Positions 14,993 through 46,764 of a DNA stretch of 64,000 bases are shown here, one piece after another. Origin of the DNA: Calothrix anomala FACHB-343 (GTDB lineage Bacteria > Cyanobacteriota > Cyanobacteriia > Cyanobacteriales > Nostocaceae); contig NZ_JACJQG010000005.1 of assembly GCF_014696435.1 (NCBI RefSeq), positions 62,001 through 126,000 of the forward strand. The letters are read 5' to 3'. Position 1 is the first letter of the stretch. Every line of letters starts with the position of its first letter. The notes beneath the pieces are model-generated. The model did no database searches. It was given only the letters and a program-made list of their open reading frames with translations, and was not told the DNA's origin. Position numbers and translations under genes: made by a program.

Positions 14993-15321
14993 TATTTACG
15001 TGCCGCCAACATTATTTAAATTTGTATAAGAGAATAGCGCTGAGGACGTTAATCTGCAACCTCATAGAGATTTAGCCTCAATGACAAAATCTACATAGAC
15101 TACATATATCTGCAATTCATCGCCTGTAATTAGGACTTTATACTAACTTTCTATGAAGATGCAAATTAGCCTGCCTTTGCAGGCTTTGTGTGTTTAGCCC
15201 CACCCTTCTAGGGTGAGGGCGTTAATGTGCAGCCTCACTTCAATCCTGAGATAAATCAGCTATTCACAAAAAAATCCCACAACTAATACCGCTTCACTTT
15301 AAAAATGATACACATAGGCAA

Positions 15322-15372
15322 GCAGAGGGGCAGAGGAAGCAGAGGGGCAGAGGAAGCAGAGGGGCAGAGGAA
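15322..15372. repeat. Three 17-bp tandem repeats, G/A-rich
   Basis: Three copies of GCAGAGGGGCAGAGGAA. Each 17-mer itself looks like two partial GCAGAGG heptamers, so this is a variant of the period-7 family. Confidence 0.88.
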
Positions 15373-18296: not shown

Positions 18297-21200
18297 TTAA
18301 ATTGCTCCACAATAAGCAGGAGAATTTTTAGCCGATTCAGGAATAATATTCGGAGAATTAGCTAATAATTCAGCTTCACCGCGACTATTAATTATCAAAC
18401 CTTGAGCCTCAATAATTGCAGATGGTTCATTATTTTTCGGCGCTGCTTGAGAAGCAGTTGTGACTCTTGTTTCCACACCCTTTGGCTGTAATCCTACTTG
18501 AGAAGACAAATCACGGACATCATTCCAAATTGTTTGACCCATAATAATATCAGTAGGATTTTGTGGTAATCCACCTCGTCCAGTCACAACAAAATTATTA
18601 GCGCGATCGCCTCGACAACTAGCAGCAATCTGTTGACTAGGATCTATAATATTTGTGGGTAATTCAGTATTAGCAAGATTCTTACTCGTTTCTAGGTTAT
18701 TAATTGTCACAACCCCATCAACTCCGAATTTTGAACTCGCATCAATCTGACTATCTGGAGAGATAAAAATACCTTGAGTTTGGATTTGAATATTACCACC
18801 AGGGCCAAAAACAGCATTAGCTCGAATATCGCTGTTATTGTGAGCCACAACAAAATTGGCATTAATGTTTATATTACCACCGCCACCAGTACTATCTAAA
18901 ACGCTAGTACTAATTAAACTCTGGTTATTGAGGAAGAGTAAATCAGTAGTCAAATTGAGATTACCGCCACCTGTTTGCGTGGATGTAGCTACTATATTAC
19001 CGCGATCGCTTTGGATTTGCTGCGCATTGATAATGATATTACCAGCTTGACCTAATCCCAAACTATTAGTAGAAATACGAGCTTGATTTATTACCTTTAA
19101 TAAATTACTTGTCACTTGAATATTACCGCCATTACCTTGCGATCCAGCTTTAGCTTCGCTGAAAGCGCCTGTAAATAAAGTATTAATATAACCATCAAAC
19201 AAAACAGAATTAGCAGCAATTTTAATTAATCCCGCATTGCCTGTACTTACTGTACTGGTATTCAAAGAAGCCCCAGTAGTAAATGTGAGAGAATCAGCAT
19301 TGATATTAATGCTACCGCCATCACCACTACCTTTAGTATCAGCAGATATTTGGCTACCATTGCGAGCGGTTAATGATGTTTGCACATTCAAAAAGATATT
19401 ACCACCACCACCAGAAACTGTAGAGGCGCTGATGCTGGCTAGATTTTCTGAGGAAGTATTATCAAGTAAAATCGCTCCCGCATCAATCTGAATATTACCT
19501 GCTTTTCCTTGTCCTGGTGGTATATTCGTGTTGCGGCTATGGAAATTACTAGCACTGATAATACCTCCATTTTGAATAGTTAAATTATCAGTAATAATAT
19601 TTAAGTTTCCCCCATCACCATTGCCTTGGATTGCACTAGCAAATAAACCACTGCGTCCTACAGCATTCACACCAATAACTTCTATATCGTTCGCTGTTAC
19701 TATTAAATTACCCGCCTTGCCAGAGCCAGCAGTACTTGTAGCAATTTGACCGCCATCTATCAGCCGCAAGGTATCGGTATCTATTGTCAAATTCCCTCCC
19801 TTACCCGTGGCATTAGAGAGAACTGTGGTAAATAATAAACTCTGACCGCTAGTAGAACCACCAATGAGTTCTATATTATTTGCCTGAATATTTAAATCTC
19901 CAGCATTTCCAGAGCTAAAAGTACCCGTACCAATTTGCGCACCATTAATTAAACGTAAACTTTGAGTATCAATGCTTAAACTACCACCATTACCCGTCGC
20001 ACCTGATTCCACATTCGCAAGTAGCCCGCTAGGGAAACCTCCGGGTGAAGTACCGCTCAGTTCTATTTGATTGGCTTGCAAATTGACAATTCCCGCATTT
20101 CCTGAACCAAAAGTTAATGCTGCTATCTGTGCGCCATCAGCAATGCGCAAATTTTCGGTTTCAATCAACAATTTGCCACCATTACCTGCGGCTTTAGATT
20201 CTACATTTGCATATAAGCCACTGGAACCAACACCAGCTGCACCCCGCAGTAGCTCTATATCTTTTGCCTTGACTGTTAAAATTCCTCCATCTTTGGCATT
20301 AAAGGTACTAACTGCTATCCTGGCACCATTAGCAACCTGTAAATTTTCCGTATTAATAATGATATTCCCGCCTCTACCTTGGGCAATAGATTCGGCATTG
20401 GCAAAAATGCCACTAGAAACGCTGCCTCGTGAAGCACCGGTTAATTGTACATTTGTGGCGTTTAATTCTATGCTGCCAGCATTGCCCATACCAAAAGTAT
20501 TAACAAATACCTGTGCGCCGTTAGTAACTAACAAATTATCTGTTTGAATTACTAACTTACCGCCATTACCTGTGGCTCCAGGCGCTACCGGTGTAAATAA
20601 ACCGCTAGAACCAGAAACACTTGAACCGCCACTCAATTCAATTTGCTGGGCGTTAACTGTGAGACTCCCGGCGTTACCAGCACCAAAGGTACCACTGGAA
20701 ATTTGAGCGCCACTAGCAACAAGCAGGCTTTTTGTATCAATTAATAAATTACCACCATTACCCGTTGCGCCAGGTGCAACATCGCTAGATAAATAAGTTA
20801 CAAAGGGAAGACCCAATACAGAAGTACCACTGACTGCTACCGCTTCTGTTGCCTTAATTATCAGACTTCCTGGTAAACCATTACCTACAGTCTCTGCCAA
20901 CATAGCAGAACCATCTTTTACTTGAATGTTACGCCCCTGTACTTGGATATTACCGCCATTACCACTAACTTCTAAAGAAGCTGCTTGAGATAGGTTAATA
21001 TCGCGAAAACTATTGACATTTTCATAACTCAATTGCCAACCTGAGGTAATGGGGTTAAGGGTGACAAAACTGTCTGTACCTACACTTCCTAACTCAATTC
21101 GTCCGCTATTGGCGGTGAGATTACCTCCTGTAACTTCAATATTCCCACCTACCAAAGCCAAAGTTTTCTGTGGCTGTACCATAACCCCGGTAGGACGAGA

Positions 21201-41898: not shown

Positions 41899-44800
41899 TT
41901 ATACTAAACTACGCAGGCGATCGCGTAAAATTTCCGCTTGTTTTTGCGCCTCTGCTAAAGCATCTCGCGCAGTTTGGACTACATCTTTTGGTGCTTTATC
42001 AACAAAGTTAGGGTTGCTTAATCTGCTAGTGAGAGATTGAGCTTCTGCTTCAGCTTTGCTGAGGCTTTTTTCTAGCTTGGCGCGCACTGCTTCAATATCC
42101 ACTACACCCTTGAGGGGAATGACAACTTGGATTGTACCGACAACACCAGCAATAGAATTTTCGGCTGATTCAGGTTGCGGTGTTGCTTGTGGCGCTTGTT
42201 TTGTTGTAGGTGGGAATAACTTTGTCCACAACTGTTTTCTCGCTGACGCTGAAAGTAAATAGCGACTAGCAAACCAAGCTGTGTAACCTAAACCGACAAT
42301 TTCAAAGAAGGTTCCAAAGATAGGAACTTCATCAATTGCATAGCCAACAGTGTAAGCCAACCGAGTAAACACAATCGCCACAATAATTAAGCCTATGGTT
42401 TTTAAACCCCTAACAGATTCTTTAGGAGTAACTGTAGCCTGATTAGACTTATCCGCAATGGTTAAAGTCTCCACCTTCGCCAAATCTTTAATATAGGCTT
42501 GTCCCAAAGTCAAGATTTGACGTTCTGTTGGGTTTTCACTTTGGAAGTTTACCGTGACTTTAGCCCCTGGCTTAATTTCGGCTTCGGCGCGTAAATTGCG
42601 AATAGTGCGGATGGTATCAATCAAAAGCTCAAACTGAGTCTCAATTTCTGGCGCTATCTGCTGCGTATTCAGTTGGGGATAGGTTTGTAAGGATATAGTT
42701 TGAGGGGTAGTTGCTGGTTGTTGGGTGAGAGTTTGCCAAATTTCCTCGGTAATATGAGGCATAAAAGGATGAAGCAGTTTTAAAATTCCTTCTAAAACAT
42801 GAGCGAGGATTTGCTGTGCTACTCGTCGCGATGCTGGATCTGCATCTTTTTGCAGGCGAGATTTCACCAGTTCAATATACCAGTCGCAAAAGTCACCCCA
42901 AATAAATTCATACAATCCTTTTGCTGCTTCACCTAAACCATAATTATCGATGTAATTACTGGTTTGTTTAATTACTTGATGGTAGCGCGAAAGAATCCAG
43001 CGATCGCATAATTCGGTGGCTATGGGTTCACCTAATTGCTGCGGTGTTTGTCCGTCCAGATTCATCATCACAAACCGCGCCGCATTCCACAACTTATTGG
43101 CAAAGTTGCGAGAAGCTTCCACTGATGGCGATTCATCTTTTTTCCGGTCATATTCCAAGCGGATATCTTGACCTGCACCGACGACTTCCTTAACTAAGGT
43201 ATAACGTAGAGCATCAGTGCCATATTTATCTATTAATAATAGGGGGTCAATGCCATTACCTTTGGTCTTCGACATTTTTTGACCTTTTTCATCCAGCACT
43301 AACCCGTGGATGTAAACGTCTTTAAATGGCATTTGTCCGGTAAAATGACCCGCCATCATCGTCATTCTGGCTACCCAGAAAAAGATAATGTCAAAGCCTG
43401 TCACTAAGGTAGTCGTAGGGTAATAAGTTGCTAAATCCTGGGTTTGTTGCGGCCAGCCTAATGTGGAAAACGGCCACAATCCTGAAGAAAACCAAGTATC
43501 TAATACATCTGGGTCTTGCTCAAGCTGGACATTTTCGCCAAATTGTGCTTTGGCTTTCTCCCATGCTGACTCAGCATTTTTGGCGACGACAAAGGGAGTA
43601 TTATCGGCGATTTGTCCGTTTGTTTCGCTGACAGCGTACCAAGCGGGGATTTGATGACCCCACCACAATTGACGAGAAATACACCAATCTTTGAGCTTGA
43701 CTAACCAATCGCGATAAACCTTAGTCCAGCGTTGGGGGACAAAATCGGGAGAATTTTTCTGGTCGAGGAATTCCAGCGCCCGGTCAGCTAAAGGGCGAAT
43801 TTTCACAAACCACTGAGTAGATAGTAAAGGTTCGATGGGGACTTTTCCGCGATCGCTATAAGGAACAGTATGCTTATAATCTTCTACTTTGACTAAAAAG
43901 CCATCTGCCTCTAGGCGGGCAATCACATTTTTTCGCGCTACAAAGCGGTCTTGTCCTTGAAACTCACCCGCATTTGCGTTCAGCGTTCCATCTTTATTCA
44001 GAATATTAATAAACGGCAAATTGTGACGCTTACCCATTTCAAAATCGTTCGGGTCATGGGCGGGAGTCACCTTGACGCAACCAGTACCAAAAGTCGGATC
44101 GACAAATTCATCGCCAATAATCGGGATTTCCCGTTGTGTAATTGGCAGAGTTACCGTCTTACCAATTAAATGCTTGTATCTCTCATCACTAGGATTAACA
44201 GCCACCCCAGTATCGCCCAGCATTGTTTCTGGTCGAGTTGTTGCTACTTCGACATAACCAGACCCATCACTGAGGGGATAGCGGAAGTGCCAGAGATTAC
44301 CATTAACTTCTTGGTTTTCTACTTCCACATCCGACACCGCCGACTGAGAAGCAGGACACCAGTTAACTAAATATTCACCGCGATAAATTAAGCCTTCCTC
44401 ATAGAGACGAGTAAACGCTTCCACCACAGCTTGCGATAAACCCTCATCCAGGGTAAATCTTTCCCGCGACCAATCCACCGACACACCCAAGCGGCGCAGC
44501 TGATTGACAATAAATCCGCCGGATTCCGCCTTCCACTGTTTAGCGCGTTCTAAAAATTGTTCGCGCCCCAACTCATAGCGAGTTTTACCCTCAGTTTTGA
44601 GTTGCTTTTCCAGCATGGTATGTACAGCGATGCTGGCGTGGTCAGTTCCGGGTAGCCATAAAGTGTTGCGTCCCTGCATCCGGTGATAGCGTACCAGCAC
44701 ATCAATTAACGCGCTTTCAAAGGCGTGTCCCATGTGCAAACTACCGGTGACGTTTGGTGGGGGGATAACAACACAGTAAGGTTCGCCGCCGCGATTGGGA

Positions 44801-44901
44801 TCGGCTTTATAAATTTGGTTTTCTTCCCAGAATTTTTGCCATTTGGCTTCTGTGGAGAAGGGTTCGTAGAGACTTGGGAGATTAGGTATAGTTGCGGTCA
44901 T
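41899..44901 (-). CDS. valS: Valine-tRNA ligase with CAAD membrane domain
   Basis: 1000 residues. The class I core has [15 protein letters not shown] (HIGH) and [14 protein letters not shown] (KMSKS), an editing domain about 200-390, and anticodon-binding helices to about 790. Then, inside the C-terminal part (about 830-930), there is a block with two hydrophobic helices, [20 protein letters not shown] and [18 protein letters not shown], before the usual ValRS coiled-coil arm (about 935-1000, [20 protein letters not shown]). The block matches the cyanobacterial CAAD domain, which anchors aminoacyl-tRNA synthetases to thylakoids in Nostoc relatives. The normal C-terminal arm follows the insertion, so the enzyme is complete. 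Confidence 0.95.
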
Positions 44902-44963
44902 GCGGGGAAAAATACGTTTGGAAGGACTCTAATAAATTTTGCCACAGGGTTGGAGAGGGATTT

Positions 44964-45389
44964 ATGGAAATGAACCGCAGAGGCGCAGAGAACACAGAGA
45001 GAAGAGAATTAGAGAGGAGAATGACTTCGCTGACTGGTGAGGTGATTGGGGCGGCGATTGAGGTACATCGGCTATTGGGGCCAGGGTTTTTGGAGGAGGT
45101 GTACAAGGAGGCGTTGATTGTAGAATTTTTAGCCCGTGGGATACCTCATGAATGCGAGAAGTCGGTAACAGTTACTTACAAAGGACATGAAGTAGGTACA
45201 AGTAGATTAGATTTTCTGGTTGCTAATTGTCTCGTCTTAGAATTAAAAGCTGTCCAGAATTTAGCCCCAATCCATGAAGCAAAAGTACTCTCATACCTAA
45301 AAATTACTAATTGTTCCCTCGCCCTCCTCATAAACTTTAACGTCCATCTCCTCAAAGACGGCATTAAACGTATTATTCTATCTTCTTAA
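44964..45389 (+). CDS. GxxExxY protein (PD-(D/E)XK-like fold)
   Basis: ATG 44964 follows GGAGAGGGA, giving 141 residues. The family motif is LGPGFLEEVYKEAL, with the following RLDFLVANCLVLELKAVQNL holding the Asp and Glu-x-Lys of a PD-(D/E)XK nuclease-like active site, and AKVLSYLKITNCSLALLINF. Family function is unproven; a nuclease is likely. The first 14 residues (MEMNRRGAENTERRE) are translated repeat. The stop (45387-45389) touches the right inverted repeat. It diverges from valS by 62 bp and precedes the MFS gene. Confidence 0.88.
   Translation: MEMNRRGAENTERRELERRMTSLTGEVIGAAIEVHRLLGPGFLEEVYKEALIVEFLARGIPHECEKSVTVTYKGHEVGTSRLDFLVANCLVLELKAVQNLAPIHEAKVLSYLKITNCSLALLINFNVHLLKDGIKRIILSS
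44972..45004 (+). repeat. Left inverted repeat of the GxxExxY cassette
   Basis: 33 bp starting GAACCGCAGAGGCGCAGAG. It matches the reverse complement of 45390-45422 at 30 of 33 positions. The N-terminal codons of the GxxExxY gene lie inside it. Confidence 0.92.
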
Positions 45390-45422
45390 CTCCTCTCTGT
45401 GCCCTCTGCGCCTCTGCGGTTC
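45390..45422 (-). repeat. Right inverted repeat of the GxxExxY cassette
   Basis: 33 bp, CTCCTCTCTGTGCCC... reading to CTCTGCGGTTC; reverse complement of the left copy except three positions. It starts at the base after the GxxExxY stop and ends ten bases before the MFS start. Confidence 0.92.
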
Positions 45423-45431
45423 GTTAATTCC

Positions 45432-46694
45432 ATGAAAACCCGTTCCCCCTGGACATACATTCCCACCCTCTACTTCGCTGAAGGTGTCCCCAACGTTCTC
45501 ATCAGCAGCGTTTCCGTCATCTTCTACAAAAAACTCGGCATCGACAACGACCAAATCACCGCTTGGACAAGCTTTCTCTACCTCCCCTGGGTACTAAAAA
45601 TGTTTTGGGGGCCATTTGTCGATATTTACGCCACCAAAAGAACATGGATACTTGTCACCCAATTTGCCATGTTTTGCTGCTTAACGTTAGTCGCCTTATC
45701 CTTACAACTACCCAATTTCTTTTTCATCTCCTTAGCAGCCTTAACAGTCGGCGCATTTATTTCTGCCACCTATGATATAGCTACCGATGGCTATTATATG
45801 TTGGCATTAAGTCCCGAACAACAAGCCTTTTTTGTAGGTATTCGCTCGCTGTTTTATCGCATTGCTGTATTATTTGGTAGCGGCTTGTTAGTCGTTTTAG
45901 CTGGACGCTTAGAAACCACACTCAATAATATTCCTTTAAGTTGGGCGATCGCGATCGGCTTTTCCGCCGTCATTTTTGCGATTCTGTTTATTTTTCACCG
46001 CTTCGTTTTACCTTGGCCGGAATCAGATATTCCCAGACAAAGACAAGCCCAAGCTGAAAAAATACCTTTTTTAGATATTATCCAAACCTATTTTCGCCAA
46101 GAAAAAATATTAGCAATTTTAGCATTTATTTTACTTTACCGATTCGGTGAAGCCATGCTTGTCAAAGTAGCATCGTTATTTCTCTTAGACAAATTAGAGA
46201 AAGGTGGTTTGGCTATTTCTACAGAACAAGTTGGACTAATTTACGGAACATTTGGCGTACTCTCTTTAATTATTGGTGGCATTTTAGGCGGAATGTTAAT
46301 TTCCCGCTATGGCTTAAAAAAATGTCTGTTTCCAATGGCTTTAGCGTTGAATTTACCGGACTTATTTTATGTATATCTCGCCTATGCGAAACCATCACTC
46401 ACATTAGTTTATCCCCTAGTTTCTTTAGAACAATTTGGTTATGGACTAGGTTTTACAGCCTTTAGCGTATATTTAATGTATATCTGCCAAGGCGAATATA
46501 AAACCTCTCATTACGCCATATCTACGGGACTGATGGCTTTAGGTTTGATGTTACCGGGGGCAATTAGCGGTACAATTCAACAAGCAGTGGGATATCCATT
46601 ATTTTTTATTTTGGTCTGTTTGCTGACGATTCCCGGAATGATTACTATCTTTTTCATTCCCTTACAAGAACCAGTCAAACCTCCCACCAGTTAA
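45432..46694 (+). CDS. MFS permease, AmpG-like
   Basis: 420 residues from ATG 45432 with twelve hydrophobic segments. The first part (YFAEGVPNVLISSVSVIFYK, then FLYLPWVLKMFWGPFVDIY) matches the AmpG/PAT branch, which imports muropeptides or other GlcNAc-containing sugars. The downstream neighbour is a GlcNAc-kinase-like protein, which fits a cell-wall or chitin sugar salvage pair. Upstream in-frame codons belong to the repeat. Confidence 0.88.
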   Translation: MKTRSPWTYIPTLYFAEGVPNVLISSVSVIFYKKLGIDNDQITAWTSFLYLPWVLKMFWGPFVDIYATKRTWILVTQFAMFCCLTLVALSLQLPNFFFISLAALTVGAFISATYDIATDGYYMLALSPEQQAFFVGIRSLFYRIAVLFGSGLLVVLAGRLETTLNNIPLSWAIAIGFSAVIFAILFIFHRFVLPWPESDIPRQRQAQAEKIPFLDIIQTYFRQEKILAILAFILLYRFGEAMLVKVASLFLLDKLEKGGLAISTEQVGLIYGTFGVLSLIIGGILGGMLISRYGLKKCLFPMALALNLPDLFYVYLAYAKPSLTLVYPLVSLEQFGYGLGFTAFSVYLMYICQGEYKTSHYAISTGLMALGLMLPGAISGTIQQAVGYPLFFILVCLLTIPGMITIFFIPLQEPVKPPTS

Positions 46695-46736
46695 AAGAAA
46701 AAACGAGGCAGATGTCAAAAAATAGATTTTCATAAC

Positions 46737-46764
46737 TTCTGCCCTCTGCCCTCTGCCCTCTGCC
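46737..46764. repeat. CTCTGCC heptamer array
   Basis: Four CTCTGCC units in the spacer between the permease and the kinase gene. Confidence 0.9.

Follow-up and report, generated by a model that had tools for sequence, protein, structure and literature searches.

Short tandem repeats of cyanobacteria have long been known. Among the described systems closest to the locus reported here, REPIN/RAYT has a gene beside a repeat with further copies genome-wide, and the repeat comes in several flavours, each with its own gene (PMC3116915). In the 23S rRNA intervening sequences an S23-family ORF occupies the loop closed by a long terminal stem, which is 28 bp long and is cut by RNase III (PMC4990558). 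MITEs and insertion sequences have inverted ends and dispersed short copies. Sex-chromosome palindromes have inverted arms which are homogenised by arm-to-arm gene conversion, and these are large arms in eukaryotes with no framed nuclease (PMC8981503, PMC3723533). For the GxxExxY family itself, one paper places a gene beside a CRISPR-like reverse transcriptase according to one pipeline, and another tool called cas4 there (PMC8934634). No description of these repeats or of the framing of GxxExxY genes was found in the open-access literature, so this absence is weak.

The locus lies in a window of 64,000 nucleotides (the whole stretch of DNA that was analysed), in which a GxxExxY gene stands between two inverted arms (Table 1). 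It shares with REPIN/RAYT a gene whose neighbouring repeat has further copies dispersed over the genome, but the protein is of PD-(D/E)XK type instead of a Y1 transposase, the repeat is built from short tandem units instead of palindromic REPs, and the scattered copies examined are mostly single, not doublets. It is like the 23S rRNA intervening sequences in having an ORF in the loop of a long stem, but it lies between two protein ORFs and not within a 23S rRNA helix, the protein belongs to another family, and the tandem-unit arms recur elsewhere in the genome. Inverted ends and dispersed short copies are shared with MITEs and insertion sequences; unlike these, the unit has no transposase, no target-site duplication was seen by eye at the flanks of the window cassette, and the arms change type in concert. 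The last point recalls the sex-chromosome palindromes.

Table 1. Coordinates of the GxxExxY cassette and its neighbours in the window.
Feature	Coordinates	Strand	Remarks
Left neighbour, valine-tRNA synthetase-like ORF	41899..44901	-	name read from translation, without family call
Left arm, 33 nt	44972..45004	+	three repeat units of CRCNNAG form, AGAG type; alignable arm reaches 44969-45022
GxxExxY gene (TIGR04256; PF13366 PDDEXK_3)	45021..45389	+	122 aa from the ATG after the left arm; longer open frame from ATG 44964
Right arm, inverted copy of left arm	45390..45422	-	first base 3' of the stop; alignable arm reaches 45372-45425
Right neighbour, membrane-transporter-like ORF, ATG 45432	45432..46694	+	name read from translation, without family call

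Alignment confirmed the 33-nt inverted repeats described in the initial annotation. The left arm and the reverse complement of the right arm share 30 of 33 positions, and the stop codon TAA (45387-45389) is followed immediately by the first base of the right arm. A repeat search lengthened the arm pair to 54 nt at 80% identity, and the three CRCNNAG units of the window arms are separated by spacers of one or two bases. The inverted-match score of the cassette was 28.5, against a maximum of 14.5 among 2,405 windows of the same geometry in the 64 kb. With up to two mismatches, the 15-mer of the arm core occurred seven times in the window against 0.02 expected from shuffling. In the predicted RNA the arms are paired over nearly their whole length (MFE -169.1 kcal/mol, z -6.1), and an Rfam search of 44800-45600 matched no family. 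Elsewhere in the window, at 15321-15369, three copies of AGCAGAGGGGCAGAG with 17-nt spacing resemble the arm unit.

The left repeat had also been read as coding for the N-terminus of the protein, which is now doubtful. ATG 45021 adjoins the arm end and is preceded directly by GAGGAG in the tail of the left arm, the TIGR04256 match begins three residues past this ATG, and in the relative L206 the ATG upstream of the arm is in another frame than the gene and meets a stop (by eye). Therefore the start codon is more likely ATG 45021 than ATG 44964 before the arm, and the left repeat is more likely a leader, sometimes also open in frame, than required N-terminal coding. In other subfamilies the likely start codon also lies 3' of the arm (by eye); on this and on L206, the idea that the protein needs an N-terminus coded by the repeat was rejected.

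The gene product matched TIGR04256 with 139.2 bits (cut-off 35) and PF13366 with 133.2 bits (cut-off 22). Among the Pfam and NCBIfam profiles, only PDDEXK_3 and GxxExxY matched it, and no Y1 (HUH) tyrosine transposase was found. The D...(E)xK active-site residues and the alpha-beta core of the PD-(D/E)XK superfamily are both present; the gene core is under purifying selection and the PD-(D/E)XK residues are retained. The AlphaFold model had a pLDDT of 96, and its best structural match was SSO0001, which we take to be a Cas4-type nuclease; a sequence search found no relative with a solved structure. The conserved residues and the matching model bear out the nuclease-like product first proposed, and support a PD-(D/E)XK nuclease-like protein. 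Unlike SSO0001, Cas4, RecB-type proteins and Hjc, all of PD-(D/E)XK type, it is a stand-alone protein of about 120 aa, and by eye no CRISPR or recombination partner was seen among the ORFs beside the gene.

For each GxxExxY domain the frame score was defined as the strongest inverted match of the 150 nt upstream with the 150 nt downstream, with a threshold of 14; a score above this value indicates matched inverted arms, which are not in every case the repeat of the window (L081 is an exception, by eye). In the genus, 19 of 21 GxxExxY genes from nine genomes scored at least 14, counts which are not independent because the 21 genes lie at only six sites. The frame was present at five of these six sites; locus L047 scored 13.0, with an insert in one arm, and L044 had no arms. 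In cyanobacteria, 28 of 29 loci listed from a search of 244 genomes were framed (26 of 26 uncut loci, together with L297 and L314), and L293 scored 12.0. Among the best 80 of 577 relatives in genome_contigs, 50 of 77 usable loci were framed, compared with 19 of 5,726 control windows taken from these loci, and 27 of the 77 scored below 14. According to the record titles these relatives were mostly Bacteroidota, with many MAGs and a few cyanobacteria; the other groups were Planctomycetota, Acidobacteria, Verrucomicrobiota, Spirochaetota, Ignavibacteria, Anaerolineae, Gemmatimonadetes, Proteobacteria and one Methanosarcinales archaeon. As a control, none of 30 ParE-family genes of the same genus was framed (L174 scored 7.0). 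One arm start recurs across phyla, TTAACC(G/A)C with CRCNNAG units, and its strict TTAACC(G/A)C motif was found in both arms of 15 of 80 loci and in one arm of many more. GxxExxY genes are thus generally framed by inverted arms. The initial annotation had suggested that GxxExxY proteins with a translated N-terminal repeat may be general in Nostocales; on these counts the gene and the repeats belong together far beyond that order.

In all nine genomes of the genus the cassette of the window is at the same site, and 18 of the 21 cassettes of the genus are at shared sites. The site is anchored by the start region of the valine-tRNA synthetase-like ORF, which was matched in 118 of 118 family genomes searched, and the start of the transporter-like ORF adjoins the cassette in 34 of 51 cassette loci. 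The window genome has two GxxExxY genes, both framed. The second cassette lies between two urease-like genes (by eye), has a different repeat on both its sides and is antisense to the neighbouring genes. The gap between the two urease-like genes (L194-L200) holds differing sequences in different species of the genus, therefore it may be a favoured insertion place.

These fixed positions do not support the minimal mobile cassette which had been proposed at first. For the valine-tRNA-synthetase site, 118 genomes were matched and 90 loci were read (one cut at a contig end), with four genus loci in addition; for the urease site nine genomes were covered, with L198 unplaceable by the motif used. 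In the loci read at the two sites there was no clean empty site, no target duplication and no recent move. Cassette-free sites showed other neighbours or decay instead, and decayed cassettes were found in L209, L257 and L267. In the loci read, the shared sites, the other neighbours, the decay and the lack of a clean empty site gave no support to a mobile cassette with recent jumps. A phage or plasmid passenger was also rejected, as the protein of L001 had no match among 50,697 phage records and eight matches among 72,556 plasmid records.

At the valine-tRNA-synthetase site the sample was 94 family loci (90 of the 118 matched genomes and the four genus loci), of which 51 had a cassette with a good domain match. 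The arm types were AGAG, CAAG, AAAG and GAAG, and the same type was present on both sides in 41 of 44 cassettes with both arms typed (42 counting the re-read L288). Left-right arm identity per locus was 0.830 (43 loci), against 0.626 ± 0.020 with the right arms shuffled (maximum 0.710 of 5,000). Within types the left-right excess was smaller, and it was clear for CAAG only (p = 0.0098; AGAG 0.068, AAAG 0.070). On the gene-core tree the left type changed at least 13 times and the right type at least 14 times. Among independent pairs drawn from well-supported branches, the type of the right arm followed that of the left in 7 of 7 for CAAG and 8 of 8 for AGAG; the same test for AAAG had two pairs only and was uninformative. 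In the relative G001, whose flank is 98% identical, CAAG arms are present on both sides and most of the gene is in common with the window. By eye, a similar type switch was seen at a second genus site (L035, L036, L042 and L043 versus L039 and L041).

Foreign inserts were read by eye, and at this site L207, L252 and L246 follow the same pattern, where the same insert is at the same position in both arms; in L246 it is about 50 nt and identical in the two arms. L041, at another site, is a fourth cassette with a double insert. An insert in one arm only was seen by eye in seven loci (L212, L217, L239, L278, L280, L047, L050), and the arms of L265 and L278 are unlike each other; such loci could be states preceding copying. 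One insert family was found at the same spot in solitary repeats too and may prefer the motif, so independent double insertion is a possibility. From the joint switching of types, with the gene core retained, and from the doubled foreign inserts it follows that either copying or repeated replacement in pairs maintains the likeness of the arms.

We give about an even chance to a self-framed nuclease cassette, in which one arm is rewritten from the other, the nuclease is the likely driver and the whole is resident and possibly selfish. One arm would be replaced by recombination with another cassette, often along with the first ~18 codons, and the second arm would soon be rewritten from the replaced one through a hairpin or cruciform of the arms, presumably paired as DNA. 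The nuclease would most likely be the driver, cutting or trimming mismatched hairpin or arm ends, whereupon repair would copy arm to arm; this repair copying may now and then seed repeat copies elsewhere in the genome. The element would be a resident, possibly selfish one that maintains the match between its two borders. Action of the nuclease on its own arms, which the initial annotation had thought possible, is the inference we favour, and its role as driver is suggested by the conservation of the protein and by the place of the gene between the arms. Ordinary host template switching could copy the arms instead of the nuclease.

The same architecture was found with S23-family four-helix genes (TIGR02436). 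Matched inverted tandem arms with a score of at least 14 flanked 23 of 30 such genes in the genus (L132-L161), and 20 of 30 from other phyla (L340-L369; 22 genomes searched) were framed against 4 of 850 control windows. The arm units differ from those of GxxExxY genes and are often heptamers, for example TTGTCAT or GGGCATT. This survey was rougher, covering the best 30 hits per search (67 hits in one), with many low-complexity arms and with near-copies (L141/L150, L135/L143). To our knowledge S23-family genes are not nucleases. Since they are framed alike, the frame need not depend on a nuclease.

Above all because of these S23-family genes, an RNA-level frame like that of the 23S rRNA intervening sequences is a real rival, though an unlikely one. 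In it the arms would pair in the transcript with the ORF in the loop, RNase III would cut the stem, the host operon would be spared and the pairing would be selected. The pairing in the predicted RNA argues for it, as do the second cassette between two urease-like genes and the framing, outside rRNA, of a gene family known from rRNA intervening sequences (PMC4990558). However, the urease-site cassette is antisense to its neighbours, and pairing selection alone cannot give the double inserts of L207, L246, L252 and L041. An identical insert in both arms therefore needs copying beyond pairing selection.

The repeat itself is scattered through the genomes. In the 9.24-Mb genome of the window the 15-mer CGCAGAGGCGCAGAG was found at 178 places (up to two mismatches, overlaps counted apart), against 14 for the reversed pattern. 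Thirty repeat loci listed of the 178 places make 26 distinct ones; one of them lies near a GxxExxY match, 0.7 kb from the second cassette, and 25 of 26 had no gene match. The initial annotation had named as its refutation that other GxxExxY genes lack these repeats and that the repeats usually flank unrelated genes, and the outcome is divided: other GxxExxY genes do carry such repeats, but the repeat has about 178 places against two genes and, at the places examined, is mostly without the gene. Solitary repeats as remnants of lost cassettes found no support in the repeat loci examined, with one such case, L257. Of 76 genomes of the same family and order, 42 have the gene, and 32 of these contain at least ten copies of the general repeat pattern, as do 8 of the 34 without it (p = 7e-6); with size matching the association was weaker (30 of 40 versus 6 of 15, p = 0.025, kinship uncorrected). 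Ten gene-bearing genomes were poor in the general pattern, and in the loci covered from seven of these the arms have other leaders. In 42 genomes the type of the scattered repeats predicted the cassette type weakly (CAAG p = 0.02, AGAG p = 0.69), which makes the dispersed pool a weak candidate for the donor of arm type.

Some arrangements of the scattered copies were also noted. By eye, head-to-head pairs within 60 nt were present at 3 of 26 distinct places (L010, L015, L019), and one tail-to-tail pair was present (L003). The head-to-head pairs have the form GGTT-loop-AACC with a short loop (L010, L015, L019 near 1501; window ~60490), while the heads of the cassette point outward, which is opposite. 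The solitary repeats of L005, L024, L025, L027, L029 and L030 have common longer surroundings near TTAATAAACCGC and TTTATTGCAA (by eye), as though they were part of some larger dispersed element. In G001 a ~90-nt element bounded by the 9-bp terminal inverted repeats ACTTACGCA/TGCGTAAGT contains a CAAG-type solitary repeat (L324, ~18640-18860), and the syntenic place in the window (~46712-46745) is without this solitary repeat.

A passive frame, with the repeats spread by another agent, the gene caught between two copies and host slippage or template switching keeping the arms alike, is improbable. The repeat places far exceed the genes, mostly with no gene match as counted above, and the element of G001 encloses the repeat, so another agent is able to carry it. 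Against this, the same gene family is framed in many phyla and at five of six genus sites. An unbiased scan of the 197-kb window contig gave five inverted pairs, of which the sole pair of this repeat encloses the GxxExxY gene, and 200 kb of G001 gave four, likewise with one of this repeat and with the gene. Least probable, and very much so, are regulatory arms for self-control of a harmful nuclease, the right arm ending and protecting the transcript and the left giving a ribosome-binding site that the stem could hide: GAGGAG before the inner ATG and the ability of the arms to pair would suit it, but scattered copies and double inserts are left unexplained and S23 genes have arms too, of quite different repeat units.

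With the self-framed nuclease cassette as our preferred reading, the analysis links GxxExxY, a large unexplained family of small proteins, in many phyla with scattered repeats that are just as unexplained, and copying from arm to arm at one fixed site offers a concrete readout for the function of the protein. With 0.35 kb between the two inverted arms, their concerted change would parallel, in bacteria, the gene conversion of palindromes. The S23 parallel suggests a common unrecognised lifestyle of small genes between matched tandem-repeat arms, and also a source from which some of the repeats in these genomes arose. A wider proposal, which we regard as tentative and on balance unlikely, is that GxxExxY nucleases are engines of cross-phylum elements that read and rewrite inverted borders: the first helix would be the specificity part, arm hairpins would be cut, arm-to-arm copying would be forced and the repeat spread, with S23-family genes and their heptamer arms as a second independent branch. 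If true, such border-rewriting elements together with the S23 branch would account for some of the short tandem repeats in cyanobacteria.
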